Shown here: positions 3,411-18,590 of the stretch, piece by piece
Layout of the letters: each line of letters starts with the position of its first letter
Position numbering within the stretch: position 1 is the first letter of the stretch
NCBI RefSeq assembly: GCF_026242195.1
Contig: NZ_RKLV01000006.1
Span: forward strand, 1-64,000
Length of the DNA stretch: 64,000 nucleotides
From: Halorutilus salinus
GTDB lineage: Archaea; Halobacteriota; Halobacteria; Halobacteriales; Halorutilaceae
Reading direction: 5' to 3'
Made by a program: the position numbers and the translations under genes
The notes under the pieces: model-generated
Told to the model about the DNA's origin: nothing
Databases searched by the model: none
What the model saw: the letters and a program-made list of their open reading frames with translations, nothing else

Positions 3411-3453
3411 CGTCTTTTCGCCACTCCGTCTGCGTGCCCTGCCGCTGGCGGAG
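3411..3453 (+). repeat. Inter-cassette element, right half (copy A)
   Basis: Matches the second half of the dispersed element (C-ACTCCG...CCCTGCCG-TGGCGGAG). The CTCCG and CGGAG arms can pair. It lies 89 bases before a vapB start. Confidence 0.6.
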
Positions 3454-3541
3454 ACAAGTTAGCGTTGATGTAACCTACTGAACGTCGTTGGCAGGAACCG
3501 GTACGAACCCTTTTGGAAATCAGGTACCAATCCCGTTCAAC

Positions 3542-3736
3542 ATGAGCGAAAGCACCGACACAGACGAACTCGGTCGTCGTCTGCTCCAGAAGTCACGTAC
3601 AGAACCGTTGAGGTCGAAGATGGAGGGCTTCGCCGAAAGACACGGAAAGACCGACCGAGACCTCAAAGACCTGCGAAGGAACGGTGGAAAAGACCTATCC
3701 GAGATAGCTGACGAAGGACGCCAAGAACGGATTTAG
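3542..3736 (+). CDS. vapB: VapB-like antitoxin, orphan copy 1
   Basis: A 64-residue, highly charged protein starting MSESTDTDELGRRLLQKS. It is about 90 percent identical by eye to the intact antitoxin at 9355, including the C-terminal GGKDLSEIADEGRQER toxin-binding type tail. In the intact locus this gene is followed directly by a PIN toxin. Here the toxin is reduced to 16 codons, so this is an orphan antitoxin. The start at 3542 was chosen because both copies share it and diverge upstream. It may cross-protect against the 9550 toxin (inference). Confidence 0.65.
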   Translation: MSESTDTDELGRRLLQKSRTEPLRSKMEGFAERHGKTDRDLKDLRRNGGKDLSEIADEGRQERI

Positions 3737-3784
3737 ATTGAGTATCTGTTCTTATATACCTCCGCACTCGTCAAGAGATACTAC
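3737..3784 (+). pseudogene. VapC toxin remnant (first 16 codons, catalytic Asp lost)
   Basis: Directly after the antitoxin stop the frame reads IEYLFLYTSALVKRYY, against MNHLFFDTSALVKRYY in the intact toxin at 9550. The ATG has become ATT and the first catalytic Asp has become Tyr. After the TACTAC at 3779-3784 homology stops and the winged-helix cassette begins. The toxin was inactivated by point changes and by replacement of its body. Confidence 0.75.
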
Positions 3785-4119
3785 CCCCGAACGTCCGCCA
3801 CACGGTCAATCATCTCCCACTCGAACTCGGCAAGCTTCTCCGCCGCGTCGTCCTCCGTATCGATGACGTACATCTTGCTTCCGGCTACCTCGCGCGGCTG
3901 TTCGACGAGACCGAGGTCCACAAACCGGTCAAGGTGTTCGTAGACGGTCTTCCTCGATACTCCAGCAAGGTCCGAGATCTGCGTCACGTTCAGGTCCTGA
4001 TCCGGTTCGCTCAACAGCGCGGCGAGTATCTTCGGCTCCGCGTGGTTCCCGAATACCGCCGTTAGTACGCTGTCCTCGGCGTAAGGTTCCGCGTCTTCTT
4101 TGGTTTCTACTTCTGACAT
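3781..4119 (-). CDS. Winged-helix regulator, cassette copy 1
   Basis: A 112-residue protein with an acidic N-terminus, then a winged HTH at about residues 25-85 (HAEPKILAALLSEPDQDLNV, ISDLAGVSRKTVYEHLDRFV, wing LVEQPREVAGSKMYVIDTED), as in haloarchaeal ArsR/TrmB-like regulators. It is divergent from a small gene at 4230, with a 15-base palindrome between them, suggesting autoregulation. A near-identical copy is at 13375-13713. The 3' end runs into the vapC remnant. Its role as an antitoxin-type repressor for the divergent partner is inference. Confidence 0.75.
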   Translation of the reverse strand: MSEVETKEDAEPYAEDSVLTAVFGNHAEPKILAALLSEPDQDLNVTQISDLAGVSRKTVYEHLDRFVDLGLVEQPREVAGSKMYVIDTEDDAAEKLAEFEWEMIDRVADVRG

Positions 4120-4166
4120 AGTTATTAGATTAATAGGTTGTTAGATACATAAGACTTGTCGTTGTA

Positions 4167-4181
4167 GTAACACATTGTTAC
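4167..4181. promoter_or_regulatory. Operator-like palindrome between divergent genes
   Basis: GTAACA (4167-4172), CAT, TGTTAC (4176-4181) is a perfect inverted repeat lying between the winged-helix gene and its divergent partner, next to the TATA-like AATATTTAATATA at about 4192-4204. It is the likely binding site of the winged-helix protein. The copy at 13.7 kb is less symmetric. Confidence 0.5.
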
Positions 4182-4229
4182 CTGTACTACACAATATTTA
4201 ATATACGTTCGCCTCAACAAAACACTAAG

Positions 4230-4517
4230 ATTGATATCGAGGACGAGGATGACCGCGAACTCGCTCTCAAAATCGTCAACAAGATGCTACGGAAGACGGT
4301 CCTCGGATCCCACAAGAAACAGGTCGATACGGTCAAAGGATGGGTGGCGACCCACAACGAGAAACGCGCCGAAAAGCTGATACGAGAGCTAATCAAGGAT
4401 CCAGACGTTCCCCTCGAAGCCTACGGCGGTTCGCGCGACAACGTACGTCTCACGGGTATCGAGGACGGTAAGGGGTTCGTGGAGGAGCTTGGTGGTAGCC
4501 CTCCGTTCGGTGTATAG
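4230..4517 (+). CDS. Small conserved cassette protein, copy 1 (ATT in place of ATG)
   Basis: A 95-residue protein if read from the codon equivalent to the ATG in copy 2, but that codon here is ATT; the next in-frame ATG is at 4284 (77 residues). The sequence IEDEDDRELALKIVNKML, then KTVLGSHKKQVDTVKGWVAT, ends GGSPPFGV. It is basic in the middle and helical in character, with no family I can name. It is divergent from the winged-helix gene. It is either expressed from a non-standard start, shortened, or silent. The DNA is almost identical to 13828-14115. Confidence 0.55.
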   Translation: MDIEDEDDRELALKIVNKMLRKTVLGSHKKQVDTVKGWVATHNEKRAEKLIRELIKDPDVPLEAYGGSRDNVRLTGIEDGKGFVEELGGSPPFGV

Positions 4518-4548
4518 TTCGCGGGGAAATTTCCGTGTTTACCCCATC

Positions 4549-4614
4549 TTCGAACCGCCCAACCGCGCCACTAGCTGTCCCTCCGCGTAAACCCCGCGCA
4601 CTGCGCTGGCGGAG
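4549..4614 (+). repeat. Inter-cassette element, full copy (copy B)
   Basis: Contains both halves: TTCGAACCGCCCAACCGCGC, CACTAG, GTCCCTCCGCG, and the CTCCGC...GGCGGAG stem. The left half up to about 4594 belongs to the duplicated winged-helix cassette; the right half precedes the next antitoxin promoter. Confidence 0.7.
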
Positions 4615-4664
4615 ACGGAGACGTGATAACCTTTTACCGTTGTGTCACGTTGTTAAGGGTAGCA

Positions 4665-4904
4665 TTGAGCACCGAAGAACGCAAGATCACACTAACGCAG
4701 GAAGGCGGTCTATGGAAAGCGGTGGACGAACAGACGGGCGTAGAGGTTCGTATGGAAGACCGTCAGGAAGCCCTGAAGAAGCTTGACCGGCTTGTGGAAG
4801 CCGACGACCCGTCCGACGACGCCTTCTTCACCGCACCGACGTTTACGACGGGTGACGGCGACGCCTCGGAGAACGTAGACGAATACCTGAACGAAGCAGG
4901 ATGA
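4665..4904 (+). CDS. HicB-like/VapB-type antitoxin
   Basis: A 79-residue protein if started at TTG 4665 (LSTEERKITLTQEGGLWKAV). An ATG at 4623 would add 14 odd residues and sits on the TATA-like GATAACCTTTTA, so the later start is preferred. The pattern 'I-L---GG-W-A-D--TGV-----R-EAL--LD-LVEA' is that of haloarchaeal HicB-fold antitoxins that pair with PIN toxins. The stop overlaps the next ATG (ATGA at 4901), but the toxin is cut short. Confidence 0.6.
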   Translation: MSTEERKITLTQEGGLWKAVDEQTGVEVRMEDRQEALKKLDRLVEADDPSDDAFFTAPTFTTGDGDASENVDEYLNEAG

Positions 4905-4987
4905 ACCGTCCGCGTCCGGTTTTCGTAGACACGGGTGCTCTGTACGCGCGTTTCGTCTCCGACGAAGTCAACTACCGGTACGCGTGA
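4901..4987 (+). pseudogene. Truncated VapC (PIN) remnant
   Basis: Starts on the antitoxin stop and encodes FVDTGALYARFVSDEVNY near the N-terminus, a clear PIN first strand with its Asp. It ends after 28 codons, while PIN toxins have about 130. The remaining motifs are absent before the next locus. The antitoxin upstream is therefore an orphan. Confidence 0.7.
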
Positions 4988-5029
4988 GTCTGCGGATAGT
5001 TGCACATGCAACTACTTCGTGAATAATAC

Positions 5030-5359
5030 TTAGTCCGTCCGAAGATATGCCTCCATCTCCTGACGCACGGTATCGACCGTCCCGTCGGTCGCCTTTGCGG
5101 GTTGCTTTGTTATCATCCGGTCTTTGAGTGTGAGAACTGACCACGGAGAGACGTAGGACGTTCGAGGGAGCCGTCCCTTTTCGAATCTGTTGGTGGTGAG
5201 TTCAATAGCCTCAGTTCGAGCCGTCGTCGTGATCGCGACCGCGATGTACTCCTGACCGTAGAAGGGAACATTACTGTTCGAGAGGATTAGATACGGGCGT
5301 TTCGGACTGTTGCCCAACGGATCCTCGGCGATAACGATAGCGCCCTGCGGGTACGCCAT
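5030..5359 (-). CDS. MazF/PemK-type toxin
   Basis: A 109-residue protein starting MAYPQGAIVIAEDPLGNSPK. It has the PemK/MazF barrel pattern: G-I-V---D------RP-LIL at the start, EYIAVAITTTARTEAIEL in the middle and VSPWSVLTLKDRMI near residues 72-85. MazF family members are mRNA-cleaving toxins. It is transcribed after the HTH gene at 5363-5728 with a three-base gap, so they form a two-gene operon. Confidence 0.75.
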   Translation of the reverse strand: MAYPQGAIVIAEDPLGNSPKRPYLILSNSNVPFYGQEYIAVAITTTARTEAIELTTNRFEKGRLPRTSYVSPWSVLTLKDRMITKQPAKATDGTVDTVRQEMEAYLRTD

Positions 5360-5362
5360 CCG

Positions 5363-5728
5363 CTACTCCTCGTCGCTCAGGTCAGGTAGCTCGTCAGCCC
5401 ACCCATCGTTCTGTGCGTACCAGTCATCACTGTACGTGTCGGCTACCGTCTCGACCCCGAGGAACGCAGCCGTTGCTGCTGCGAGCCGGTCGTCCTCCGC
5501 GGCTCCCCAGTACGGTTCCTTGTGACGAACAATGCCCGCTGTTTCGAGTCGTTGCAGTGTCGGTCCGATGCTCCCACGTGGAACCCCGGTTTCTTCTGCC
5601 AGCTCTGCCGGTGTGTATCCGACGGTTGGATGCTCCAGTAGGAACTCCAGCAACTGCCTCGCGTTGGTTCCTTCTGACAGGTCAACCCGTTGGCTTCCCG
5701 GTTCATATGTTTCGAAATCGACGGGCAT
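5363..5728 (-). CDS. HTH antitoxin/regulator paired with MazF
   Basis: A 121-residue protein. Residues about 25-75 form a winged HTH (RQLLEFLLEHPTVGYTPAEL, AEETGVPRGSIGPTLQRLET), followed by an acidic tail ending ELPDLSDEE of the kind that neutralises MazF. It is first in the operon with the toxin downstream. HTH-type antitoxins for PemK/MazF are common in haloarchaea. Functional pairing is inferred from context. Confidence 0.7.
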   Translation of the reverse strand: MPVDFETYEPGSQRVDLSEGTNARQLLEFLLEHPTVGYTPAELAEETGVPRGSIGPTLQRLETAGIVRHKEPYWGAAEDDRLAAATAAFLGVETVADTYSDDWYAQNDGWADELPDLSDEE

Positions 5729-5774
5729 GTACGACTATTGTATTCGAACCGTATTAGGCGTTTGGACTGACATC

Positions 5775-5809
5775 CTTCCCGCCGTCCCCGCGCCCTGCCG
5801 ACGGCGGAG
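5775..5809 (+). repeat. Inter-cassette element, right half (copy C)
   Basis: Reads CGTCCCCGCGCCCTGCCG then ACGGCGGAG, matching the right half. The following GACCAGCGGTG...GTCGGTAAACGC is shared with the sequence after copy H, before the second DUF433 gene. Confidence 0.65.
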
Positions 5810-5829
5810 ACCAGCGGTGGGTCGGTAAA

Positions 5830-5861
5830 CGCTTAAACCTAAGCAGGGCTAAGATACGGAC
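5830..5861 (+). promoter_or_regulatory. Promoter of the first DUF433/DUF5615 pair
   Basis: The stretch CGCTTAAACCTAAGC then GGGCTAAGATACGGAC precedes the ATG at 5862 and is nearly identical to that before the second pair (10084-10115). The CTTAAA core is a likely TATA box; conservation of the whole leader suggests a shared operator. Confidence 0.5.
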
Positions 5862-6137
5862 ATGAGCATCGTAAAGACGGAGGACACGCTCGGCGGGGAG
5901 CCGCGTCTCAAAGACAGGCGCGTCTCCGTAATGCAGATAGCCGAGATGTACATCGATGGCGGTATGTCACCTGAGAACGTAGCCGACCAGCTCGGCGTAG
6001 GGCTGGACGAGGTACACGAGGCTCTCGCGTACTACTACAGACACCCCGACGAGATGGACGAGGTACGCGCGAGGCACCGTGAACTGGAGGAAGAACTGAA
6101 GGAAGACCCCGAAATACCCGAACGTGCAGAGAGATAG
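5862..6137 (+). CDS. DUF433 antitoxin, copy 1
   Basis: A 91-residue DUF433 protein. The signature is clear: I-KTEDTLGGEPRLKDRRVSV, then QIAEMYIDGGMSPENVADQL and a third helix (DEVHEALAYYYRHPDEM). DUF433 proteins are HTH antitoxins (VapB45 type) paired with Mut7-C/DUF5615 PIN-like toxins. The stop abuts the toxin ATG at 6138. It is closely related to the copy at 10116. Confidence 0.85.
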   Translation: MSIVKTEDTLGGEPRLKDRRVSVMQIAEMYIDGGMSPENVADQLGVGLDEVHEALAYYYRHPDEMDEVRARHRELEEELKEDPEIPERAER

Positions 6138-6467
6138 ATGGGGTTCGTAGCCGACGAACACGTACCGAGTGCGGTTATCAACGCGCTCCGTTCCAAAGGC
6201 TACAACGTTCTACACGCACCGGAGGTGTACGCTCAGGGGGACGACGATCCCGAACTTCTCCAAAACTGCGCCAAAGACGGGCGCGTCCTACTAACAAACG
6301 ACAGGGACTTCGTCCGACTCGCCGACGAGAAGGAACACTCCGGCGTCATAATCTACACCGACCAGAAACGACCGCCGCGTGAGGTGCTGAGGGCTGTCAT
6401 ACGGATAGACGATGCATACTCGGGTAACCTCAAAAACAGAACCGTCTGGCTCGGAGGTTGGGTATGA
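6138..6467 (+). CDS. DUF5615 PIN-like toxin, copy 1
   Basis: A 109-residue protein with the DUF5615 layout: FVADEHVPSAVINALRSKGY at the N-terminus (acidic catalytic D-E), then GRVLLTNDRDFVRLA (TNDxDF motif) and GVIIYTDQ. These are predicted RNases of the VapC45/Mut7-C PIN-like group. It directly follows its DUF433 partner. The stop overlaps an ATG (6464) that begins a small reading frame running through the repeat. Confidence 0.85.
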   Translation: MGFVADEHVPSAVINALRSKGYNVLHAPEVYAQGDDDPELLQNCAKDGRVLLTNDRDFVRLADEKEHSGVIIYTDQKRPPREVLRAVIRIDDAYSGNLKNRTVWLGGWV

Positions 6468-6589
6468 CCGAACACCTCGACCACGAACCTGAACGGAACG
6501 GTATACTCGACTTCTTCGAAGCGCCGAACCGCGCTACGTACGTCGTCCCTCCGCGTAAGCTACGCGCTCTGCCGCCGGCGGAGTCTTGA
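6464..6589 (+). CDS. Micro-ORF running through the inter-cassette element
   Basis: ATG overlaps the toxin stop (ATGA). The 41-residue frame begins MTEHLDHEPERNGILDFFE and ends PPRKLRALPPAES. The second half is the translated dispersed element. Partly similar readings occur at 8.4 kb (EHLDAEP), 10,720 (PPNRAAYVVP) and 15,134 (GFFEPPNR). Other copies carry frame breaks, so this may be a relic or a by-product of a DNA element rather than a peptide gene. Confidence 0.35.
   Translation: MTEHLDHEPERNGILDFFEAPNRATYVVPPRKLRALPPAES
6515..6583 (+). repeat. Inter-cassette element, full copy (copy D)
   Basis: The cleanest full copy: TTCGAAGCGCCGAACCGCGC, ACGTACGTCGTCCCTCCGCG, an internal GCGTA-AGC-TACGC hairpin, then GCCGCCGGCGGAG closing on CTCCGC. 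Confidence 0.75.
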
Positions 6590-6689
6590 CCAACACGGTA
6601 GACGGGCATGTCCTGAACATGAGTGGGAGATCCTGACGACGGCGACGACCGCCGCCAGTCTTATACAGTCGTATAGCTTAGGTATAGAC

Positions 6690-6923
6690 ATGAGTACCGA
6701 CAGCGAACGTAAACCCGTTCCCGTCTCGCTCCCGTCCGAACTTGTCGAGGAACTCGATACGCTCGTGGAGGAAGGTGTCTTCTCTTCGCGCTCCGACGCG
6801 ATACGGTACGGCGCGCGCCTCGTCATACGCGAGGAGAAACAGCACCAACGTCTGCACGAGCGCGCCGACGACCGCGCCGAGGACGACATACGCGAACGGA
6901 TGGAGCGCAAGAGGGAGTCCTGA
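6690..6923 (+). CDS. vapB: CopG-type (ribbon-helix-helix) antitoxin
   Basis: A 77-residue protein: strand KPVPVSLPSELVEELDTLVE, then EEGVFSSRSDAIRYGARLVI, a classic ribbon-helix-helix, with a charged C-terminal helix. A TATA-like stretch (TATAGCTTAGGTATAG) lies just upstream at about 6672-6687. It is followed four bases later by a PIN toxin at 6928. It is the DNA-binding antitoxin of a VapBC-type pair. Confidence 0.8.
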   Translation: MSTDSERKPVPVSLPSELVEELDTLVEEGVFSSRSDAIRYGARLVIREEKQHQRLHERADDRAEDDIRERMERKRES

Positions 6924-6927
6924 CAGG

Positions 6928-7314
6928 ATGTACCTCGACACCGACGCCGTGCTCGCGCGCCTCAAGGTTGAGGACTGGCTACGGTCGTTCGTCTCGCCCG
7001 ACGTTCTCGAATCTCCGGTTACCTCGACCGCGACGGCTATCGAGGTTCAGTACGTTATGGGGGACGAATGGGAACTCGACAGGCTCACCGAGGTGTCGGA
7101 ACGGATCGCGGACGAGGGTATCGAACTCTCGCCGCTGACACGCGAGAACGTCGAGGCGTCGGAGGAGCTACGCGGGAGGTACGACGCGCTCGGTGTCTTC
7201 GACTCTATACATCTCGGTGTGGCGTGGACGAACGACGAGCCGACACTCTCGACCGACACGCTCTACCCCGACATAGACGAGGTCGAACATATCGACCCAC
7301 GTGATTTAGGATAA
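6928..7314 (+). CDS. vapC: VapC-like PIN toxin
   Basis: A 128-residue PIN protein. MYLDTDAVLARLK gives the first Asp, EVQYVM the conserved Glu region (about residues 40-46), and GVFDSIHLGVAW near residues 91-102 the F-D-S-x-H block common in archaeal VapC. The DEPTLSTDTLYPDID segment supplies the last acidic residue. The start at 6928 is preferred because upstream in-frame sequence overlaps the antitoxin in another frame. Confidence 0.8.
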   Translation: MYLDTDAVLARLKVEDWLRSFVSPDVLESPVTSTATAIEVQYVMGDEWELDRLTEVSERIADEGIELSPLTRENVEASEELRGRYDALGVFDSIHLGVAWTNDEPTLSTDTLYPDIDEVEHIDPRDLG

Positions 7315-7317
7315 AGA

Positions 7318-7413
7318 ATGAGCGACAGCTTCGAGGGTTTCGACGAATCCGGCGTGAAAGGTAGGATGGTAGAATGGCTGAAAAAGATGGTTCGCCGACG
7401 TCACCGGGGATAA
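7318..7413 (+). CDS. Possible 31-residue basic peptide
   Basis: Begins four bases after the vapC stop: MSDSFEGFDESGVKGRMVEW then LKKMVRRRHRG. It has an acidic first half and a strongly basic amphipathic end. It may be a remnant of a larger gene or a coupled micro-ORF. There is no homology I recognise. Confidence 0.25.
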   Translation: MSDSFEGFDESGVKGRMVEWLKKMVRRRHRG

Positions 7414-7580: not shown

Positions 7581-7624
7581 GTACGTCGTCCCTCCGCGTC
7601 GTCTACGCGCTCTACCACCAACGG
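7581..7624 (+). repeat. Inter-cassette element, partial copy (copy E)
   Basis: Reads GTACGTCGTCCCTCCGCG, TCGTCTACGCGCTCTACCAC, with the final GGCGGAG replaced by CAACGGATC. The left half is absent. Confidence 0.55.
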
Positions 7625-7722
7625 ATCCGTGACAGTCCCGGAAAGCCGTCCACCTTTCGACCCGGTGCCGACCCAACCAAAGAGGTATACCTAAACACCA
7701 CCTTCTATTGTACAGGGACAGT

Positions 7723-7959
7723 ATGAGTCAGAGCATCAGACGCGAGGATACCGCCGAAGGCGTCACGGTAATCGACGAAAGAACCGGCGAGAAGGTCACC
7801 GCCGAGACGTACGTCGAGGCTCTTGAGGAACTCGCACAGCATCTAAGCAACCTCGCTACGCTCAATAGGCTCTTCGACGACGTACAGAAAAGGTTTGACG
7901 AGACAGGTACCACCGAGGACGACGTCGAGGAGGCTATAGAGTGGGCGAGAGATCGGTAG
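7723..7959 (+). CDS. Antitoxin of a COG1569-type pair
   Basis: A 78-residue protein starting MSQSIRREDTAEGVTVIDER. A short N-terminal strand pair (GVTVIDERTGEKVTAETY) leads into helical, acidic sequence, a layout seen in antitoxins next to PIN_3 toxins. It overlaps the toxin start at 7941 by 19 bases. The start at ATG 7723 was chosen over 7708 because the latter adds an unlike pentapeptide. The family is inferred mainly from its partner. Confidence 0.6.
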   Translation: MSQSIRREDTAEGVTVIDERTGEKVTAETYVEALEELAQHLSNLATLNRLFDDVQKRFDETGTTEDDVEEAIEWARDR

Positions 7960-8372
7960 TCTACGACACGAACACCGTCGTATCGGCTCTGGAGTTCGGA
8001 GGAACCCCACAGACAGCCCTTCTTACAGGATTCACGCGGGTATGGGACATGTACTTCTCAAAGGAGATACTGTCCGAAATCGAGCGTGTCATGCGGTACG
8101 ACAAGATACCGGTTAGGGAAGATGAGTCGGAACTGTTTCTCACGGTTATGCGGGATGAAGGGGTACCCGTTGAACCTAAGGTTTCGGTAGATGAGTCCGA
8201 TGACCCGGATGACAACAAGTTCTTGGAGTGTGCCTTTGAAGCCAACGCACAGTACCTCGTTTCCGGCGACAGCGACCTACTCGAACTCGGGAAGTTCCGA
8301 GGTACTGAAGTAGTCACCCCGGACGGGTTTCTCGGACAGCAGGACGAGGGTTCACGGCTAACAAACTCGTAG
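7941..8372 (+). CDS. PIN-domain toxin, COG1569/PIN_3 type
   Basis: A 143-residue protein with a GTG start inside the antitoxin. The signature is SVVYDTNTVVSALEFGGTPQ (DTNVLVSAL pattern), then YFSKEILSEIERVMRYDKI, DDPDDNKFLECAFEANAQYL (D-DDN-FLE-A) and VSGDSDLLEL (SGD-DLL). All four PIN blocks are present, so it is probably active. COG1569 members are 'putative TA system toxin component, PIN family'. Confidence 0.85.
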   Translation: MGERSVVYDTNTVVSALEFGGTPQTALLTGFTRVWDMYFSKEILSEIERVMRYDKIPVREDESELFLTVMRDEGVPVEPKVSVDESDDPDDNKFLECAFEANAQYLVSGDSDLLELGKFRGTEVVTPDGFLGQQDEGSRLTNS

Positions 8373-8459
8373 GGTGTGACGTTATCAGACCATTTAGAAA
8401 CCGTCTTCTTCTAATACAGCTCGAACACCTCGACGCCGAACCCGACGACGACGCACGGC

Positions 8460-8530
8460 TTTTCCGGCGCGCCGAACCGCGCAACCTTCGTCGTCCCTCC
8501 GCGTAAACCCCGCGCACTGCGCCGACGGAG
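8460..8530 (+). repeat. Inter-cassette element, full copy (copy F)
   Basis: Contains CGCCGAACCGCGC, TCGTCGTCCCTCCGCG, AAACCCCGCGCACTGCGCCG and ACGGAG. Upstream bases 8427-8459 encode EHLDAEPDDDARL, similar to the micro-ORF at 6464 and to bases just before copy M. Confidence 0.7.
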
Positions 8531-8587
8531 CCGTGAACCCGAGAAGCCCTCGTTACCCTTATTTGCCTGTAAACGAGACATATACAT

Positions 8588-8818
8588 GTGACCACCAAGA
8601 CCGTGCGCCTTGATGAGGACGTCTACGAGATGCTCGCGGAGCGCAAACGCGACGACGAGACCTTTTCGGAAGCCGTCGAAAGGCTCGTCGGCGGCAGACC
8701 ACTAGTCGAACTCGACGGGGTGTATACCGAGGACGAGGTACGCGAGATAGAGCAAGCGTTGGATGACAAATACGAACGCGAAAGAAAAGAGCGTATCTCG
8801 GAGACACAGCGACGGTGA
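8588..8818 (+). CDS. vapB: VapB-type antitoxin (DUF7557-like), copy 1
   Basis: A 76-residue protein with a GTG start: TKTVRLDEDVYEMLAERKRD then DETFSEAVERLVGG, the standard haloarchaeal VapB opening, followed by a charged C-terminal helix. The stop overlaps the GTG of the toxin (GTGA at 8815). It is a paralog of 16153. Confidence 0.8.
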   Translation: MTTKTVRLDEDVYEMLAERKRDDETFSEAVERLVGGRPLVELDGVYTEDEVREIEQALDDKYERERKERISETQRR

Positions 8819-9204
8819 TACTCGACACGACGTTTCTCCATGACCTCATGTACGGCGAGGATAACGCTGTCGAGAAGGCACGCGAACTCGACGAAAGCGG
8901 AAACGTTTCTCTTTCCTCCATGACGGTCTATGAACTCTACTACGGCGTTGGCTACACTGACAAAGGAAGTGGCGAAAAAGAAAAGATAGACTCGGTGATA
9001 GGCTCCAAACAGGTTCTGCCCGCAGATGCACCTGTAATGAGGAAGGCGGGGAGGATAGACGGAAAACTCTCAAGAGATGGCGAAAAGGTCGGACAGGCTG
9101 ATACCGTAATCGGTGCGACGGGTGTACTGCACGACAGACCGGTTCTAACGCGGAACGTCGCCGAGTTCGAACGTATTCCGGAACTGGAAGTCGAAACGTA
9201 CTAA
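8815..9204 (+). CDS. vapC: VapC PIN toxin, copy 1
   Basis: A 129-residue PIN protein: MILDTTFLHDLMYGEDNAVE (first Asp), SSMTVYELYYGVG (conserved Glu), GKLSRDGEKVGQADTVIGAT (third acidic site) and VLTRNVAEFERIPELEVETY. The GTG start at 8815 overlaps the antitoxin stop. It shares the layout and C-terminus (EVETY) with the toxin at 16377, so the two are old duplicates or frequent cassette types. Confidence 0.85.
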   Translation: MILDTTFLHDLMYGEDNAVEKARELDESGNVSLSSMTVYELYYGVGYTDKGSGEKEKIDSVIGSKQVLPADAPVMRKAGRIDGKLSRDGEKVGQADTVIGATGVLHDRPVLTRNVAEFERIPELEVETY

Positions 9205-9220
9205 CCGAACGATGTGCCGT

Positions 9221-9257
9221 TTCGCCGCGTAAGCTACGAGCACTGCCGCCGGCGGAG
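9221..9257 (+). repeat. Inter-cassette element, right half (copy G)
   Basis: Reads TTCGCCGCGTAAGCTACGAG, CACTGCCGCCGGCGGAG. It retains the GCGTA-AGC-TACG hairpin and the CCGCCGGCGG palindrome. Confidence 0.65.
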
Positions 9258-9289: not shown

Positions 9290-9354
9290 GATGGGTGTCT
9301 TTGACAGAACCCGGTACGAACCCTTTTACTACTCAAGCACCAATTTCATTCAAG

Positions 9355-9549
9355 ATGAGCGAAAGCACCGACACAGCTGAACTTGGTCGTCGTCTACTTC
9401 AGAGGTCACGTACAGAACCGTTAAGGTCGAAGATGGAGGGCTTCGCCAAAAGACACGGAAAGACCGACCAAGACCTGAAAGACCTGCGAAGGAACGGTGG
9501 AAAAGACCTGTCCGAGATTGTCGACGAAGGACGCCAAGAAAGGGTTTAG
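9355..9549 (+). CDS. vapB: VapB-like antitoxin, intact locus
   Basis: A 64-residue charged protein, MSESTDTAELGRRLLQRS through GGKDLSEIVDEGRQERV. It is the parent type of the orphan at 3542 and of two frameshifted copies at 13271 and 16795. It abuts its toxin: stop at 9547-9549, ATG at 9550. A longer in-frame start at 9295 (TTG) is not conserved among copies and runs through the operator region, so 9355 is preferred. Confidence 0.75.
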   Translation: MSESTDTAELGRRLLQRSRTEPLRSKMEGFAKRHGKTDQDLKDLRRNGGKDLSEIVDEGRQERV

Positions 9550-9984
9550 ATGAACCACCTGTTCTTCGATACCTCCGCGCTTGTCAAGAGGTACTACGAG
9601 GAAGACGGTACGGAAGCCGTGGACGCTCTCGTCGAAGAAGAACAGAATCAGGTGATTATCAGCTCACTTTCCGTCATAGAGTCTGCGTCGGCGTTCCGTA
9701 GAAAACATAACCGCGGAGAGCTATCCCAAGACCGCGTGAATCTACTACTCTCCGAGTTCTTCGAGGAGGCGTTAGACGGGTTCGCTATCGTTCCTTTGGA
9801 AGAGCCTATTACGGAGTACTCATTTGACCTGATACTCGAAGAGGATCTACGAACCCTCGATAGTCTACAGCTGTCAACAGCTCTCTCGGTAGACAGTGGA
9901 GGTATGGTCTTTGTCTCAGCGGACAGGAAGCTCAACAAGGTGGCGAACAGGTGTGGACTCGAAACGCGGAATCCTACAGACTGA
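9550..9984 (+). CDS. vapC: VapC PIN toxin, intact
   Basis: A 144-residue PIN protein: MNHLFFDTSALVKRYYEEDG (first Asp), SSLSVIESASAFRRKHNRGE (Glu), EDLRTLDSLQLSTAL (the D-SLQL block with Asp) and GGMVFVSADRKL (last Asp). All four acidic positions are present. The first 16 codons match the dead remnant at 3737. It immediately follows its antitoxin. Confidence 0.85.
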   Translation: MNHLFFDTSALVKRYYEEDGTEAVDALVEEEQNQVIISSLSVIESASAFRRKHNRGELSQDRVNLLLSEFFEEALDGFAIVPLEEPITEYSFDLILEEDLRTLDSLQLSTALSVDSGGMVFVSADRKLNKVANRCGLETRNPTD

Positions 9985-9993
9985 TACTCTCTG

Positions 9994-10058
9994 CGAAACC
10001 GCAACCGCGCCACTACGCCGTCCCTCCGCGTAAGCTACGCGCTCTACCTCCGGTGGAG
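9994..10058 (+). repeat. Inter-cassette element, full copy (copy H)
   Basis: Contains CAACCGCGCCACTACGCC, GTCCCTCCGCGTAAGCTACG and CTCTACCTCCGGTGGAG. The right flank GACCAGCGGTG and GTCGGTAAACGC match the sequence after copy C. Confidence 0.7.
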
Positions 10059-10115
10059 ACCAGCGGTGAAAAGAGTCGGTAAACGCTTAAACCTGAGCGG
10101 GGCTAAGATACGGAC

Positions 10116-10391
10116 ATGACCATCGTAAAGACAGAGGACACGCTCGGCGGAAAGCCGAGACTCGAAGGCAGACGCATATCTGTTCTCCAGATAGCCGAGA
10201 TGGTGATAGACGCCGGAAGGTCGCCGGAGCGCGTCACCGACGAACTCGAAATAGGACTCGACGAGGTACACGAGGCTCTCGCGTACTACTACAGGAACAT
10301 CGACGAGATGAACGAGCTACGTGAGAGGAAACGAGAGTTACGCGAGCGAATAAAGGAGAACTCTAACGCACCGGAGAAGGCGGACCGATAG
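10116..10391 (+). CDS. DUF433 antitoxin, copy 2
   Basis: A 91-residue DUF433 protein: MTIVKTEDTLGGKPRLEGRR, QIAEMVIDAGRSPERVTDEL, DEVHEALAYYYRNIDEM. It is closely similar to 5862 in protein, promoter and upstream repeat, so the two loci are duplicates that have diverged mostly in the C-terminal tail. A gap of two bases precedes the toxin start. Confidence 0.85.
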   Translation: MTIVKTEDTLGGKPRLEGRRISVLQIAEMVIDAGRSPERVTDELEIGLDEVHEALAYYYRNIDEMNELRERKRELRERIKENSNAPEKADR

Positions 10392-10393
10392 CG

Positions 10394-10723
10394 GTGTTCG
10401 AACTCGTCGCCGACGAGAACGTTCCGACGCCGGTCGTCGAAGCCCTACGGTCGAACGGCTACGAGGTACACCGCGCACAGGAGGAGTACGGACAGGGGAC
10501 CGCCGACGGCGAGATACTCGAAGCCTGTGCCGACGAAGGACGCGTGATACTCACGAACGACAACGACTTCGCTCTGCTCGTTGAGGATGCCGAACACGCC
10601 GGAGTCGTGGTCTACAACGACCAAAACCTCCGCACCCGCGAGATTCTGAGGGGCGTGGTGAGTATAGACAACGCCTACGACAGCCCCGAAAACCAGCTTG
10701 AATGGCTTGAAGGATGGATATGA
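10394..10723 (+). CDS. DUF5615 PIN-like toxin, copy 2
   Basis: A 109-residue toxin with a GTG start, like 6138: FELVADENVPTPVVEALRSN, GRVILTNDNDFALLV and AGVVVYNDQNLRTREI. The catalytic D-E and TNDxDF motifs are intact. The stop overlaps an ATG at 10720, exactly as in copy 1, again opening a short frame into the inter-cassette element. Confidence 0.85.
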   Translation: MFELVADENVPTPVVEALRSNGYEVHRAQEEYGQGTADGEILEACADEGRVILTNDNDFALLVEDAEHAGVVVYNDQNLRTREILRGVVSIDNAYDSPENQLEWLEGWI

Positions 10724-10779
10724 TCAGGCATCTTACTTCTCTCGAACCGCCCAACCGCGCGGCGTACGTCGTCCCTTGA
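10720..10779 (+). CDS. Micro-ORF into the inter-cassette element (19 residues)
   Basis: ATG overlaps the toxin stop; the frame reads MIRHLTSLEPPNRAAYVVP and stops. It matches the PPNRA-YVVP part of the 41-residue micro-ORF at 6464, then is cut by a TGA at the element break. Conservation of the ATGA overlap at both DUF5615 loci is notable; function is unproven. Confidence 0.3.
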   Translation: MIRHLTSLEPPNRAAYVVP

Positions 10780-14115: not shown

Positions 14116-14146
14116 TTCGCGGGGAAATTTCCGTGTTTACCCCATC

Positions 14147-14182
14147 TTCGAACCGCCCAACCGCGCCACTAGCCGTCCCCCC
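14147..14182 (+). repeat. Inter-cassette element, left half (copy K)
   Basis: Reads TTCGAACCGCCCAACCGCGC, CACTAGCCGTCCCCC, then switches to unrelated sequence. It marks the right edge of the second winged-helix cassette. Confidence 0.7.
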
Positions 14183-14590: not shown

Positions 14591-14646
14591 GGTGCCGATG
14601 AGAAGCCGCTCCCGCATAAGTGTTAATAACCGTTTACAGTAGTGGA

Positions 14647-14660
14647 AACGCTTATACACA
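14647..14660 (+). promoter_or_regulatory. TATA box for the HTH gene at 14680
   Basis: CGCTTATACACACAG sits 20-33 bases before the ATG at 14680 and supports that start over the upstream in-frame ATG at 14620. Confidence 0.5.
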
Positions 14661-14679
14661 CAGGGTACCCTTCTACTGT

Positions 14680-15021
14680 ATGAGCGGTACTGAGCACGCG
14701 GAAACCGACAACGAGCGAAAGAAGGAACTCCGTATGGAGAACCCCAGCGGATGGCTCTACCTCACCCAACACGACGCGGTTCCCGTACTCGTTGATGCGC
14801 TACTCGATCTGCCGCCGAACCGTGAGTTCAACAAAACCGAACTCGCCGAGCATGCAGGCGTTACGCGTCAGACGGTCGGGAACTACACCGACCTCCTGAT
14901 CGAGACCCGGCTCATCGAGGAGGTACCGAAAACGTCGCCCCGCAGGTACCGCGTCGCGGACAGCGACGTTATACGACAGCTCTTCGAGTTCAACAGCGCG
15001 CTCAACAACGCCGGTGAGTAA
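14680..15021 (+). CDS. Winged-helix DNA-binding protein
   Basis: A 113-residue protein, MSGTEHAETDNERKKELRME, then ALLDLPPNREFNKTELAEHA, GVTRQTVGNYTDLLIETRLI and a wing with RRYRVADSDVIRQLFEFNSA. This is an ArsR/MarR-like winged helix similar in layout to haloarchaeal TA-linked regulators. It is divergent from 14276. Whether it is an antitoxin or a plain repressor cannot be told. Confidence 0.7.
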   Translation: MSGTEHAETDNERKKELRMENPSGWLYLTQHDAVPVLVDALLDLPPNREFNKTELAEHAGVTRQTVGNYTDLLIETRLIEEVPKTSPRRYRVADSDVIRQLFEFNSALNNAGE

Positions 15022-15133
15022 GCTCGTATCCCGACGGTGCCGTACACGCGCCAAGGAACCGGCTACCCGGCTGACCGAACCGTGTCTCGAATAAAGATAC
15101 ACATCTGAACGTCTCACGGAGTCCGTCGGCGTC

Positions 15134-15301
15134 ATGGGGACGCGTCATGAACTTACCGAGGCGCAGGGGACGATCCGCGGCTTCTTCGAACCGCCCAACC
15201 GCGAGTACTACTTCAATCCATGCCACCCGCGTCTCAACGTGCCGCTGACGCCGTTCCCGCCACCGTCTCGTCACCCGCGGTCTTCCAAACACACAGTATA
15301 G
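15134..15301 (+). CDS. Possible 55-residue peptide carrying the FFEPPNR motif
   Basis: MGTRHELTEAQGTIRGFFEP, then PNREYYFNPCHPRLNVPLTP. It includes the left half of the inter-cassette element (15184-15205) but continues open with a proline-rich tail, unlike other copies. It could be a fragment of a longer protein from which the element's coding motif derives. Confidence 0.3.
   Translation: MGTRHELTEAQGTIRGFFEPPNREYYFNPCHPRLNVPLTPFPPPSRHPRSSKHTV
15184..15205 (+). repeat. Inter-cassette element, left half (copy L)
   Basis: TTCTTCGAACCGCCCAACCG plus CGA. The right half is replaced by unrelated sequence. Confidence 0.6.
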
Positions 15302-15342
15302 CCACCGTCATCTATATGAGTATGAAAAATATATGTATAGAT

Positions 15343-15612
15343 ATGTCGGAGCACAGACGAAAGGTTGGTGACAGGGGACAGGTCACCATCCCCAAGGAAC
15401 TACGTGACAGCCGTGGTATCAAAGGCGGCGACGAGGTTAAGTTCGTCGAGGTCAACGACGAGATTCTCATCAAACCGCCGACCGACGACGAGCGTCTGGC
15501 TGAGGGCTACCGGAAACGCGCCGAGCGATCCCGACGGATTGCCGAGGAGATGGACGAGGCATCGTCGGAAGCAACCGACCGACTCGGAGAGGCACCCGAC
15601 CGGGACGACTGA
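15343..15612 (+). CDS. AbrB/SpoVT-type antitoxin
   Basis: An 89-residue protein with the swapped-hairpin AbrB core RRKVGDRGQVTIPKELRDSR then GIKGGDEVKFVEVNDEILIK at residues 4-45, and a charged C-terminal arm. The start at 15343 is set by the AbrB core; the AT-rich stretch 15310-15340 (AAAAATATATGTATAG) is the likely TATA region. It is the antitoxin and repressor of the MazF-like toxin downstream. Confidence 0.8.
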   Translation: MSEHRRKVGDRGQVTIPKELRDSRGIKGGDEVKFVEVNDEILIKPPTDDERLAEGYRKRAERSRRIAEEMDEASSEATDRLGEAPDRDD

Positions 15613-15622
15613 GGTGGAACAT

Positions 15623-15973
15623 GTGAAGATACGCCGTGGTGATATCGTCACGGTCGAACTGAACCCCACGAAGGGAAGCGAACAAGAAGGGGAAACCAGA
15701 CCCTGTGTCGTCATCCAGAACGATGTCGGGAACCGGTTCTCACCTACCACGGTCGTCGCGCCTTTCACCAAGAGGTACGACCCCGACGATGTGTACCCGT
15801 TTGAGGTAGAGGTGCTGTCTTCGGAAACGGCTCTCGATCACGACTCCGTCGCCGACCTGAGTCAGATACGGGTTGTCGATACCGAAGCGCGTGTGAAGGA
15901 AAAGATAGGCTCGGTTCCGTCGGCGCGGATGACAAGGATCGATACGGCGATCAAGGACAGTCTCGGTCTATAG
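15623..15973 (+). CDS. mazF: MazF-type endoribonuclease toxin
   Basis: A 116-residue protein from GTG 15623 (alternative GTG 15614), with GAGGTGG just before it as a possible ribosome site. Motifs are KIRRGDIVTVELNPTKGSEQ, then GETRPCVVIQNDVGNRFSPT, TTVVAPFTKR and LSQIRVVDTEARV, matching MazF's 'RGDI--V-L-PT-GSEQ-G-RP-VV-QND--N'. It is well conserved, including the RP turn and the Q-IR block, and probably active. It pairs with the AbrB antitoxin 10 bases upstream. Confidence 0.9.
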   Translation: MKIRRGDIVTVELNPTKGSEQEGETRPCVVIQNDVGNRFSPTTVVAPFTKRYDPDDVYPFEVEVLSSETALDHDSVADLSQIRVVDTEARVKEKIGSVPSARMTRIDTAIKDSLGL

Positions 15974-16049
15974 GTGAACACAGGGTAACAGACCGTCCGG
16001 GTACCGGGAAGGACGGTAGCCCGACAATGAACCCGAACGACGACGCACG

Positions 16050-16106
16050 GCTTCTCCGCTACACCCAACCGCGCGGCTTCGCGTCCCTCCGCGGGTACGC
16101 GTCGAC
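16050..16106 (+). repeat. Inter-cassette element, diverged copy (copy M)
   Basis: Reads CTTCTCCGCTACACCCAACC, GCGCGGCTTCGCGTCCCTCC, GCGGGTACGCGTCGACC. Just upstream, CCCGAACGACGACGCACGG parallels the bases before copy F. Confidence 0.55.
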
Positions 16107-16133
16107 CAACCCCACCATCAGGGTTAAGTAATC

Positions 16134-16150
16134 TTGTATACGACGTATAC
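16134..16150. promoter_or_regulatory. Palindromic promoter element before vapB copy 2
   Basis: TGTATAC-GAC-GTATACA is an inverted repeat of seven bases with a three-base spacer, ending three bases before the ATG at 16153. It is a probable operator. Confidence 0.5.
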
Positions 16151-16152
16151 AC

Positions 16153-16380
16153 ATGGGAACGAAGACCGTCCGTCTCGACGAGGACGTGTACGAACGCGTC
16201 CGCTCGCGGAAACGCGACGACGAGACGTTCTCGGAGGCTATCGACCGTCTCACGGGCGGTTCGTCGTTGCTCGACCTCGAAGGAACCCTTAGCGACGAGG
16301 AAGCCGACGAGGTACGCGAGGCTATCGAAGAGAGCCGCGAAGCCGACGTGGAGGAGTCGAAGGAGATAGGCGAAGGTTGA
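16153..16380 (+). CDS. vapB: VapB-type antitoxin (DUF7557-like), copy 2
   Basis: A 75-residue protein: GTKTVRLDEDVYERVRSRKR, DDETFSEAIDRLTGGSSLLD, then an acidic helix rich in EA and EE. It is a paralog of 8588. A TTGTATACGACGTATACAC stretch just upstream (16133-16151) contains the palindrome GTATACGACGTATAC, which could be both TATA element and operator. The stop overlaps the toxin TTG start. Confidence 0.8.
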   Translation: MGTKTVRLDEDVYERVRSRKRDDETFSEAIDRLTGGSSLLDLEGTLSDEEADEVREAIEESREADVEESKEIGEG

Positions 16381-16769
16381 TTCTCGATACATCTTTTCTT
16401 ATCGACGTACAGAACGGCGTGGATGCGGCAACCGAGAAGGCGCGTGAGATAGAGTCAAGCGGTCGCCCTCGGCGCGTACCGCACGTCGTCCTGTACGAAC
16501 TGTACATCGGAGTCGGTAAGGGCGTGCAGACGGACGAAAACAGGGAGCGTATAGAGAGCGTCGTCCCCTCGTTACCTCTCGAACCCACGACGCCGTCGAT
16601 AGCGCGTCGCGCAGGAAAGATAGAGGGCGAGCTACAGAGGGAGGACGGGGCGATCGGTACCGTCGACGCTCTCGTCGCCGCAACCACGTTGGAGTACGAT
16701 GAACCGCTTGTCACCGCCGACACCGACGACTTCGGGACTGTTCCCGGTCTCGAAGTCGAGACGTACTAA
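16377..16769 (+). CDS. vapC: VapC PIN toxin, copy 2
   Basis: A 130-residue PIN protein with a TTG start on the antitoxin stop: ILDTSFLIDVQNGVDAATEK (first Asp), VPHVVLYELYIGVGKGV (Glu), GAIGTVDALVAATTLEYDEP (third site) and TADTDDFGTVPGLEVETY (fourth). The PIN site is complete. It is related to the toxin at 8815. Confidence 0.85.
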   Translation: MILDTSFLIDVQNGVDAATEKAREIESSGRPRRVPHVVLYELYIGVGKGVQTDENRERIESVVPSLPLEPTTPSIARRAGKIEGELQREDGAIGTVDALVAATTLEYDEPLVTADTDDFGTVPGLEVETY

Positions 16770-16794
16770 GAATCAAGTACCAGTCCCATCCAAG

Positions 16795-16899
16795 ATGAGC
16801 GAAACCACCGACACATCCGAACTCGGTCGTCGTCCCCTTCGGAGGTCACGTACAGAACCGTTGAGGTCAGATGGAGGGCTTCGCCGAAAGACACGGAAG
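16795..16899 (+). pseudogene. VapB remnant with frameshift
   Basis: Starts ATGAGCGAAACCACCGACAC and follows vapB at 9355, but carries the same two-base deletion (GTCAGATGG) as 13271 and ends after the codons for RKTRK. It directly follows the vapC at 16377 with no inter-cassette element, so it was probably moved here together with its leader (the GTACCAGTCCCATCCAAG before it matches the other copies). Confidence 0.7.
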
Positions 16900-16936
16900 G
16901 TACGACAGTCCACATTCCACCCAAACCGTTATCTGT

Positions 16937-16965
16937 CATAAACATGTAACTGTACATAAACATGT
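16937..16965. promoter_or_regulatory. Direct repeat and palindrome over the start codon
   Basis: CATAAACATGT occurs at 16937-16947 and 16955-16965, an 18-base period; the second copy contains the ATG at 16962. The inner bases ATGTA-ACTG-TACAT (16944-16957) form an inverted repeat. This is a likely antitoxin operator that overlaps the translation start. Confidence 0.5.
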
Positions 16966-17204
16966 CAAGTTCGGAGAAGGTGGTTCAGACCGAGCTTCCG
17001 GAAGAAGAGTACGAGAGGCTGGCACGGATAGCTGAGAAGGAAGACAAGTCCTTGAAACAGTTGCTAAGGGAGGCGGCTAACGAGTACACCAGCCGACACG
17101 AGGAGATAGACCTCAACGACCCGTTCTTTCAAGTAGACGTTGGTGAATCCGGTGCGGACGAGAAGACCGCCAAAAAGACTGACGAATACATCTACGGAGA
17201 GTAG
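16962..17204 (+). CDS. vapB: CopG-like antitoxin
   Basis: An 80-residue protein: EKVVQTELPEEEYERLARIA, EKEDKSLKQLLREAANEYTS, a ribbon-helix-helix of the VapB type, then an acidic tail ending TDEYIYGE. It abuts the PIN toxin at 17205. Confidence 0.75.
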   Translation: MSSSEKVVQTELPEEEYERLARIAEKEDKSLKQLLREAANEYTSRHEEIDLNDPFFQVDVGESGADEKTAKKTDEYIYGE

Positions 17205-17657
17205 ATGATAGAGAGATTTGAGCCGAAGGTCGAAGTTCCTACGGGACTGTTCCTCGACACGAGCGCTCTCTTCCCCTACTTCGATCCCGACACGGAGGAA
17301 CACGACGAGGTGAAGACTTTCTTCAAGCAACTGCTATCCGAACTCCAATACCGACCCCTATACACAAATCAGTACGTGGTGGATGAGCTTGTTACGCTTC
17401 TTCTGTACAAGGCAGACAGGGGGAAAGCCACCGAGGCGTATGAAGCTATTACTGAGTCCGAGGTCATACAGCTCCTTTCTGTCGACGACGCCGTCTTCAA
17501 GAAAGCAGGTGAGGAGTTCCTCGAAGGAAACGAAGCCGTATCCTTCACCGACTACACGGTAGGTGTCCAGGCACGAGAGAAAACCGTCGAGTACGTCTTA
17601 GCATACGACGGCGACTTCGAAAGCCTCGGTCTGAACAGAATCCCCTACCCGGAATAG
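17205..17657 (+). CDS. vapC: VapC PIN toxin
   Basis: A 150-residue PIN protein with a 13-residue lead: GLFLDTSALFPYFDPDTEEH (first Asp), TNQYVVDELVTLLLYKADRG (Glu), VSFTDYTVGVQARE (third Asp, S-T-D pattern) and VEYVLAYDGDFESLGLNRIP (last Asp). It is full length. It starts right after the antitoxin stop. Confidence 0.85.
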   Translation: MIERFEPKVEVPTGLFLDTSALFPYFDPDTEEHDEVKTFFKQLLSELQYRPLYTNQYVVDELVTLLLYKADRGKATEAYEAITESEVIQLLSVDDAVFKKAGEEFLEGNEAVSFTDYTVGVQAREKTVEYVLAYDGDFESLGLNRIPYPE

Positions 17658-17751
17658 TATTGCGGTTACCGTTCATCTATAGTCAAAAGACCGGACAGCT
17701 TTGTAAAGTGTGAGTAACAAGAGAGAAACCTCGTTGAAGAACCGTGCTCGT

Positions 17752-18183
17752 TCACGCCGAGTACGGGTTAGCGTCGGACTTAATCCGTTTCAGGTCGTCG
17801 ACGGAGTCAAAGCCGGTGTCGAACGAGTAGATGTAGTCGACATCCTCCACGCCCGCGTAGGCGACGAGAGCAGAGTCCACGAAAGAGAGATGTGGGTTAC
17901 CGCGGTACACGTCGTGTGCGTTCGTCCAAACCTCACGGTTCGTGCGCTCCATCCTGAAACCGCCGCTTCTTTCGAGTATATCAGCCGCCTCCGTGCAGTC
18001 GTCGTGGCTCAACGAACCCGTCATGGCGTTGAACGTCTCGGCGTAGACGAAGTCCAGGACGATACCGACGGGTAGGTCGCCGTTGTCCATCCGTCTGAAG
18101 ATAGGTAACGCGTCGTCATGGTAAGGGTCCTGTCTGTTCAGCGCGCCGTACAGGACGACGGTATCGACAAGGGCTTCCTGCAT
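17752..18183 (-). CDS. vapC: VapC PIN toxin (minus strand)
   Basis: A 143-residue PIN protein: EALVDTVVLYGALNRQDPYH (first Asp), VLDFVYAETFNAMTG (Glu), NPHLSFVDSALVAYAGVEDV (third Asp) and YIYSFDTGFDSVDDLKRI (last Asp). It follows an AbrB-type antitoxin by three bases on the minus strand. It is one of the few modules facing left. Confidence 0.85.
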   Translation of the reverse strand: MQEALVDTVVLYGALNRQDPYHDDALPIFRRMDNGDLPVGIVLDFVYAETFNAMTGSLSHDDCTEAADILERSGGFRMERTNREVWTNAHDVYRGNPHLSFVDSALVAYAGVEDVDYIYSFDTGFDSVDDLKRIKSDANPYSA

Positions 18184-18186
18184 CCA

Positions 18187-18459
18187 TCAGTCACCCGTGT
18201 CGATCCTGCCCGCCGGTTCCAAGCCCACCTCGTCGTGGTCGACCGACCCCCCTTCAGATTCGAAGCCGTCGAATCCGTCAGGAAGGACGTTCTTCCTCTG
18301 ACGTATTACCTCGACGCGTAGCTCGCCATCCTCCCAGTACCACCGAATCCTGTCGCCGTCCTCTATATGCGCGGCTTCGCGTATCTCCGCTGGTATGGAA
18401 GCCTGGTTACCCGAAACCGCCCCCGACCCCACCTTCTTGTCTGTGTTTCCCGTGCTCAC
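18187..18459 (-). CDS. AbrB-type antitoxin (minus strand)
   Basis: A 90-residue protein: SGAVSGNQASIPAEIREAAH then IEDGDRIRWYWEDGELRVEV, the AbrB/SpoVT core, followed by a polar tail (GFESEGGSVDHDEVG) likely to bind the toxin. It is first gene of the pair with vapC at 17752. Confidence 0.8.
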   Translation of the reverse strand: MSTGNTDKKVGSGAVSGNQASIPAEIREAAHIEDGDRIRWYWEDGELRVEVIRQRKNVLPDGFDGFESEGGSVDHDEVGLEPAGRIDTGD

Positions 18460-18532
18460 ACCCTGTATAACTACCTCTCGGACTTAAACTAACCGGTGCA
18501 CTAAGACCCGCACCGGGTTTGACGTATCCAGC

Positions 18533-18590
18533 CGAACGGCGTTCGTCTCTTCACCGCGTCGCCCCTGCGCTCTACCGCCCGCGGAGCCGG
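18533..18590 (+). repeat. Inter-cassette element, diverged copy (copy N), last of the array
   Basis: GAACGGCGTTCGTCTCTTCA, CCGCGTCGCCCCTGCGCTCT, ACCGCCCGCGGAG. It keeps the right-half GCGCTCT-ACCGCC-GCGGAG. No copy was seen beyond this point, so it marks the right border of the array. Confidence 0.5.

Follow-up and report, generated by a model that had tools for sequence, protein, structure and literature searches.

Archaeal elements residing in the 3′ ends of protein genes replace the stop codon and re-use the site (PMC6563490), and at the ef-2 gene casposons stand in tandem in the 3′ end, reflecting repeated insertion with target copies between the inserts (PMC6563490). CDI loci carry trails of displaced 3′ ends (PMC4927057). 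Integrons and CALINs, archaeal ones included, hold small cassettes rich in toxin–antitoxin (TA) genes, with a boundary repeat and shuffling between relatives (PMC9668308). We compared these systems with a TA array of Halorutilus salinus that lies in the window, the 64,000-nucleotide stretch of contig NZ_RKLV01000006.1 analysed here.

Like the archaeal 3′-end elements, the array appears to have a gene 3′ end as its target, stop codons from incoming DNA and growth by re-use of the site; unlike them, it has bare TA inserts without an integrase, and the duplicated end measures 26 to 283 nt (PMC6563490). It shares with CDI/Rhs orphan modules an intact head gene (on contig C53 of the related metagenome-assembled genome Ods02), a same-strand trail of displaced 3′ ends and a toxin-related module after each, but here one constant, non-toxin DUF7405 end recurs and the TA genes are separate genes, not variable C termini (PMC4927057). 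Its small TA-rich cassettes, boundary repeat and shuffling recall integrons and CALINs, from which it differs in lacking IntI, a folded attC and the G↓TTRRRY junction, and in having a coding repeat that is not cassette-borne (PMC9668308). The tandem casposons are matched in repeated gene-end insertion with target copies, but not in terminal inverted repeats or a constant duplication length (PMC6563490). Cassette-like organisation is supported; an integron is not.

Many modules of the array are TA pairs by Pfam, with PIN, PIN_3, VAPB_antitox, DUF433/DUF5615, MazE/PemK and RHH families represented (Table 1). The PemK-like/HTH pair is 79% identical to a copy in genome G051, and this homology ends 6 nt short of the next repeat. 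One 809-bp segment is duplicated within the array (3780-4584 and 13374-14182).

Table 1 Features of the TA array, with matches to the covariance model of the repeated element
Feature	Position	Strand	Model match (E<1e-3 unless given)	Remarks
DUF7405 tail	3382..3453	+	3382-3453	Reads YFKVPNYSTYVFSPLRLRALPLAE
Truncated cassette E copy	3454..3784	+		Antitoxin and PIN toxin start
HTH (minus) / ORF (plus) unit	3781..4517	.		Tail-less relatives in G001 C323, G003 C47
DUF7405 tail	4548..4614	+	4548-4614	
Cassette A	4619..4975	+		Antitoxin and truncated toxin; common to Ods02
PemK-like toxin / HTH pair	5026..5767	-		
DUF7405 tail	5773..5809	+	5773-5809	Short
Cassette B	5826..6467	+		DUF433 antitoxin / DUF5615 PIN-like toxin; 81% to Ods02
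DUF7405 tail	6467..6590	+	6512-6583	Longest of window
RHH antitoxin / PIN toxin	6690..7314	+		
DUF7405 tail	7581..7626	+	7581-7625	
Cassette C	7723..8372	+		Antitoxin / PIN_3 toxin; 78% to Ods02
DUF7405 tail	8421..8530	+	8460-8530	Broken frame
Cassette D	8531..9215	+		VapB / PIN
DUF7405 tail	9216..9257	+	9202-9257	
Cassette E	9317..9984	+		Antitoxin / PIN; 75% to Ods02
DUF7405 tail	9988..10058	+	9988-10058	
Cassette B′	10073..10723	+		DUF433 / DUF5615
DUF7405 tail	10738..10776	+	10738-10776	Broken before end
DUF7405 tail	14145..14182	+	14145-14206	Broken; right end of 809-bp duplication
Left-half tail copy	15184..15230	+		Weak
MazE / PemK (MazF-like) pair	15316..15973	+		
DUF7405 tail	16052..16093	+	16052-16093 (E 0.015)	Weak, broken
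Cassette F	16120..16769	+		VapB / PIN; common to Ods02
RHH / PIN pair	16962..17657	+		
DUF7405 tail	18520..18586	+	18520-18586	Final one of array

A preliminary description of the window had proposed that a dispersed element separates the modules. A covariance model built from the sequences of nine window copies, with no structure, establishes that this element is real: searched against the organism's own genome, the model gave significant matches solely in the array (3382-18586) and at one further place, C16:3642-3706(-), also at E<1e-3. Most of the sites originally listed were recovered at that threshold; the one at 16050 is weaker, and those at 15184, where the left half alone matches, and at 13166, where only the last few bases do, are weak. 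Searched with a tolerance of 3 mismatches, the left-half pattern gave five forward matches and one reverse match, with none in a reversed control, and an Rfam scan of the window matched nothing.

The element derives from a single protein gene, DUF7405: it is that gene's displaced 3′ end, present as copies of its last 26–283 bases. A reading as a free-standing or integron-type recombination site is not supported. The consensus given in the preliminary description is coding sequence: the tail at 6467..6590 (+) ends in NGILDFFEAPNRATYVVPPRKLRALPPAES (also given as EHLDHEPERNGILDFFEAPNRATYVVPPRKLRALPPAES) followed by a stop, and the tail at 3382..3453 (+) reads YFKVPNYSTYVFSPLRLRALPLAE. Left edges vary over that range and the right edge is common and fixed, no copy running more than about 6 nt beyond one gene-end point, directly after GGAG. 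Identity among window tails is 0.78 over the final 12 nt, falls to 0.43 at +1 to +6 and is about 0.25 further on. Any of the four bases may follow GGAG and TTRRRY is absent, and once the B′ copy is set aside no sequence above chance is shared just 3′ of the tails. Each insert is flanked by direct repeats of the DUF7405 3′ end, and the gene end is reconstituted. The preliminary description took the element for a recombination site and itself named a conserved gene tail as the finding that would speak against this; the DUF7405 3′ end comes close to being just that.

Ods02, a member of the same family in another genus, clarifies the arrangement. An intact DUF7405 gene heads its matching array on C53; the six displaced tails there lie on the gene's strand, alternating with TA modules. 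Six TA modules are common to both arrays at 68–81% DNA identity and stand in a different order, which bears out the earlier view of the modules as cassette units bounded by the element. The homology of cassette D to an Ods02 copy without an adjacent tail begins at the first base after GGAG, and the Ods02 copy closest to cassette B′ (C29, 82%) is situated away from the array, without a tail. Relatives of the modules outside the arrays likewise have no tail attached; unlike an attC, the tail is therefore not carried along with the cassette. Tails group by genome rather than by cassette (support 95/92), a pattern that could equally stem from gene conversion. A portable attC was rejected on these two grounds, tail-less module relatives and grouping by genome.

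We consider it rather probable that TA modules were captured repeatedly at the DUF7405 3′ end. An incoming module would have been attached at GGAG, immediately after the final conserved codons, supplying its own stop codon and stranding the previous gene 3′ end (26–283 bases) 3′ of the new arrival; repeated capture would give the series gene, TA, tail, TA, tail. Recombination between tails, together with illegitimate deletion and duplication, may afterwards have reshuffled and eroded the units. We infer this order of events, and the enzymology, whether site-specific or homologous plus illegitimate; TA addiction may explain why modules were retained. Against serial capture count the lack of a linked recombinase and the absence of an intact DUF7405 gene from the organism's own assembly, which has just a 3′ fragment on C16 (a contig placed next to C14 by inference). 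The identity of tails to the Ods02 gene does not fall with distance, contrary to strict head-proximal accretion.

Read as serial capture, the locus would document numerous captures at a single position, the displaced gene tail serving as a built-in marker and two genera sharing modules in different order. To our knowledge, it is an open question by what means small TA modules are moved when no mobility genes are visible. More generally, repeats that bound cassettes can turn out to be displaced gene ends, and they should be checked for coding origin before being named att sites.

That the right edge is fixed where the gene ends, and that stop codons are drawn from the following DNA, would also be expected if the DUF7405 3′ end had served repeatedly as attB for a site-specific integrase, the integrated elements having been deleted down to their addictive TA genes and the tails being att sites; archaeal elements do form arrays at protein-gene 3′ ends in this way (PMC6563490). 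This is one possible enzymology of serial capture, and a site-specific process at the gene's 3′ end is possible. We nonetheless regard an integrase array as doubtful: no single crossover point is shared by the left edges, and the inserts are TA-sized, without other element genes. No recombinase or mobile gene linked to either array was found; the nearest tyrosine recombinase that the window contains occupies 52428-52886, and those of G003 are on other contigs. Two serine recombinase matches fall on contig C4 of the organism's own genome, with none in G003. Virus and phage collections held no relative of the tail, and plasmid collections gave 35 records whose matches cover most of the query at <60% identity, those listed being annotated as Tat-signal, Dyp-type peroxidase or hypothetical proteins. 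A somewhat bolder suggestion, to which we give slightly less credence than to an integrase array, is an undescribed, non-integron capture system that puts TA modules at one exact gene-3′-end position and duplicates a tail of variable length each time, TA arrays being built and reshuffled in this way with no linked recombinase.

Plain tandem duplication and decay, in which a DUF7405–TA unit multiplied, DUF7405 eroded from its 5′ side and the TA genes were replaced or diverged, is unlikely. It predicts the variable left edges, and duplications such as that of 3780-4584 do exist in the array, but from about +6 onward the DNA behind one tail is unrelated to that behind another, the modules come from different families, and each would need to have been joined independently at the same base. 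Far less plausible is casposon-like insertion, with a Cas1-type integrase duplicating its target at the gene 3′ end each time: the ef-2 tandems provide a precedent (PMC6563490), but the duplicated length ranges from 26 to 283 nt and eight inserts lacked terminal inverted repeats (P 0.08-0.85). Homologous pairs, B/B′ and E/E, contribute to the higher left-end score of that test.

The hairpin originally proposed within the element can be drawn in some copies and is not conserved, with 64.3% of cells paired versus 65.7% in shuffles; it shows no covariation, and RNAalifold predicted a consensus fold of 3 pairs. IntI (TIGR02249) had no match over cut-off in G000–G003, which are incomplete assemblies, and in a CALIN IntI would be missing in any case. 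An integron or CALIN, with the element a divergent attC moved by an integron integrase, is scarcely credible despite the cassette-like, mostly one-strand, TA-rich and shuffled modules, given the missing IntI and conserved fold, the wrong junction, the coding origin, the tail-less relatives and the grouping of tails by genome.

Among 295 genomes of the order, the organism's own and G003 stand out for multi-tail arrays, and G011 has broken gene pieces; the array carriers are two genomes only, both draft metagenome-assembled genomes. Other TA-rich loci of the family showed no comparable dispersed repeats, and by ORF inspection no obvious TA module adjoins the other DUF7405 genes (that of G001 and a second in G003). 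A ThiM-like gene 3′ of the array had no match in G001–G003, which says nothing on synteny. The spacer between cassette C and its upstream tail is similar in Ods02, a possible exception to the rule that tails do not travel.

The element recurring between the toxin–antitoxin (TA) modules of the window is a DUF7405 gene's 3′ end. Its translation yields one protein end that recurs in many copies, and the copy on contig C16 extends into upstream sequence with a match to Pfam DUF7405 (PF24152, positions 217-347, E 6e-36) and a weak one to Dyp_perox_C. The window covers C14:1-64000 of the Halorutilus salinus assembly (2.10 Mb, 17 contigs). The elements are present where the preliminary description had placed them, two of them (15184 and 13166) in part only. 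Searching the assembly with a sequence-only model built from nine copies gave no further significant match beyond the array and the C16 copy. Many modules between these gene tails are TA pairs by Pfam, as had been described. The assembly lacks a full-length gene of this DUF7405 family and holds only the 3′ fragment on C16.

Tails and associated features of the two arrays
Feature	Position	Detail
Strong tail matches	3382, 4548, 5773, 6512, 7581, 8460, 9202, 9988, 10738, 14145, 18520	
Weak tail match	16052	
Partial tail	15184	left half only
Partial tail	13166	last few bases only
Tail outside the window contig	C16 3642-3706	minus strand
Tail translation	6468-6590	..NGILDFFEAPNRATYVVPPRKLRALPPAES*
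Tail translation	3411	TYVFSPLRLRALPLAETS*
Tail translation	7581	YVVPPRRLRALPPTDP*
Tail translation	9221	AVSPRKLRALPPAEGG*
Tail translation	18533	FVSSPRRPCALPPAEPG*
Palindromes at contig ends	window 1-100; C16 1-200	CCTCGGGGCTTG(A/C)CCCCGAGG type
PemK/HTH pair	5026-5767	
Bases shared by B and B′	5810-5819; 10059-10068	ACCAGCGGTG
Duplication	3780-4584; 13374-14182	809 bp
Cassette E starts	3484-3784; 9297-9597; 13192-13374; 16767-16906	promoter and antitoxin
ORF pair	10841-12342	348 and 152 aa
Ods02 DUF7405 gene	C53 54992-56470	intact, 492 residues
Ods02 tails	C53 58826, 59997, 60885, 62837, 64695, 66002	same strand as gene

A sister array lies in the MAG Euryarchaeota archaeon Ods02 (JAQZDA010000002.1; same family, another genus, unclassified at NCBI), where six tails downstream of an intact DUF7405 gene alternate with TumE/HVO_A0114, PIN, PIN_3, DUF433/DUF5615 and VapB/PIN modules. 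By match number these two genomes stand out among 295 of the order, the others having mostly one to three; another genome, G011, carries pieces of a broken gene. Six cassettes (A–F) are common to both arrays at 68-81% DNA identity. The window has them as A B C D E B′ F (B′ being a second B-type module), Ods02 as A E C B F D, and this difference bears out the proposal that the modules behave as units. Along Ods02 C53:58826-66295 the displaced tails lengthen at each step from the intact gene (71, about 118, 120, 131, 247 and 283 nt), a perfect order with a chance of 1/720; how closely they match the gene follows no trend, and the window tails show no such length order.

Read on its minus strand, C16 carries the DUF7405 fragment, a UPF0175/PIN pair, an HTH-like gene and the beginning of a frame containing LLGGWAVH, which breaks off near a CCTCGGGGCTTGACCCCGAGG palindrome; a similar palindrome opens C14, the window contig, followed by ..YIGSRDIDLGFHV. 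The palindromes apparently represent an IS200/IS605-like insertion, which would lie within a nucleotidyltransferase-type gene and have split the assembly; we infer that C16 and C14, whose ends do not overlap, are neighbours on either side of it. In Ods02, too, a nucleotidyltransferase/HTH pair directly follows the DUF7405 gene. Provided that C16 and C14 are correctly joined, both genomes have an array that begins at a DUF7405 3′ end.

The right edge of the tails is fixed. Nine tails in the window and five in Ods02 extend to one common codon, at GGAG except for a single window copy with GGAT and a single Ods02 copy with CGAG; the stop codon comes from the following sequence. Mean pairwise identity falls from 0.78 over the last 12 nt to 0.43 at +1..+6 and then 0.27, 0.22, 0.24 and 0.25 in the window, and from 0.64 to 0.33 and then about 0.25 in Ods02; beyond about +6 no likeness is detectable, the next 30 nt not exceeding shuffles (P 0.10 and 0.83). 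Cassette D shows this edge clearly: its homology to an Ods02 copy without an adjacent tail sets in with the base that follows GGAG (P 0.0005) and runs about to the start of the next tail. The PemK/HTH pair matches G051, a genome of another family, at 79%, and this match breaks off six bases short of the tail that comes next. Left ends vary, leaving tails of roughly 26-109 nt in the window and 71-283 nt in Ods02. B and B′ share the same 10 bases directly after GGAG though each is closest to a different Ods02 copy, which suggests that these units recombined with each other in H. salinus.

For the most part, tails do not travel with cassettes. They divide by genome (support 95/92; mean identity among tails of one genome 0.68 and 0.79, between genomes 0.57), and tail-less relatives of B′, C, E and an HTH/ORF unit occur outside the array in Ods02 or in a further genome, G001. 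Cassette C may be an exception: because its spacer from the tail is alike in both genera (P 0.004) and differs from that of the tail-less G001 copy, the junction may be older than the genus split or have been exchanged.

The gene–TA–tail layout, the one fixed and one variable joint, the tail-less modules elsewhere and the genome-specific tails fit a model in which TA modules would have been captured serially at the DUF7405 3′ end, each capture displacing the old gene end to give gene–TA–tail–TA–tail. Capture could be site-specific, as the fixed right edge suggests, or proceed by homologous plus illegitimate recombination, as the variable left edge suggests. Archaeal integrated elements target 3′-distal regions of protein genes, can swap the stop codon for their own and re-use sites to form arrays (PMC6563490). 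Here no enzyme was found at either array, where neither a tyrosine nor a serine recombinase is encoded nearby. We found no inverted repeats, and no relative of the tail in virus and phage collections. Trails of displaced 3′ ends are also known from CDI loci (PMC4927057). The first reading of the element as an integron-type recombination site fails in the tests applied, with no IntI found, no attC fold, a junction other than G|TTRRRY and a site not portable with its cassette. Archaeal integrons reported so far retain attC fold and IntI features (PMC9668308). From the first reading, the cassette-like and shuffled character of the modules survives.

Tails also take part in later rearrangement, since the 809-bp duplication ends within one. 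The start of cassette E occurs four times, three of them truncated remnants (85-92% alike). The ORF pair inside the array has no Pfam or NCBIfam match; the N-terminus of its first ORF is reminiscent of Panacea/SocA (DUF4065) antitoxins, so the two may form an unrecognised TA pair.
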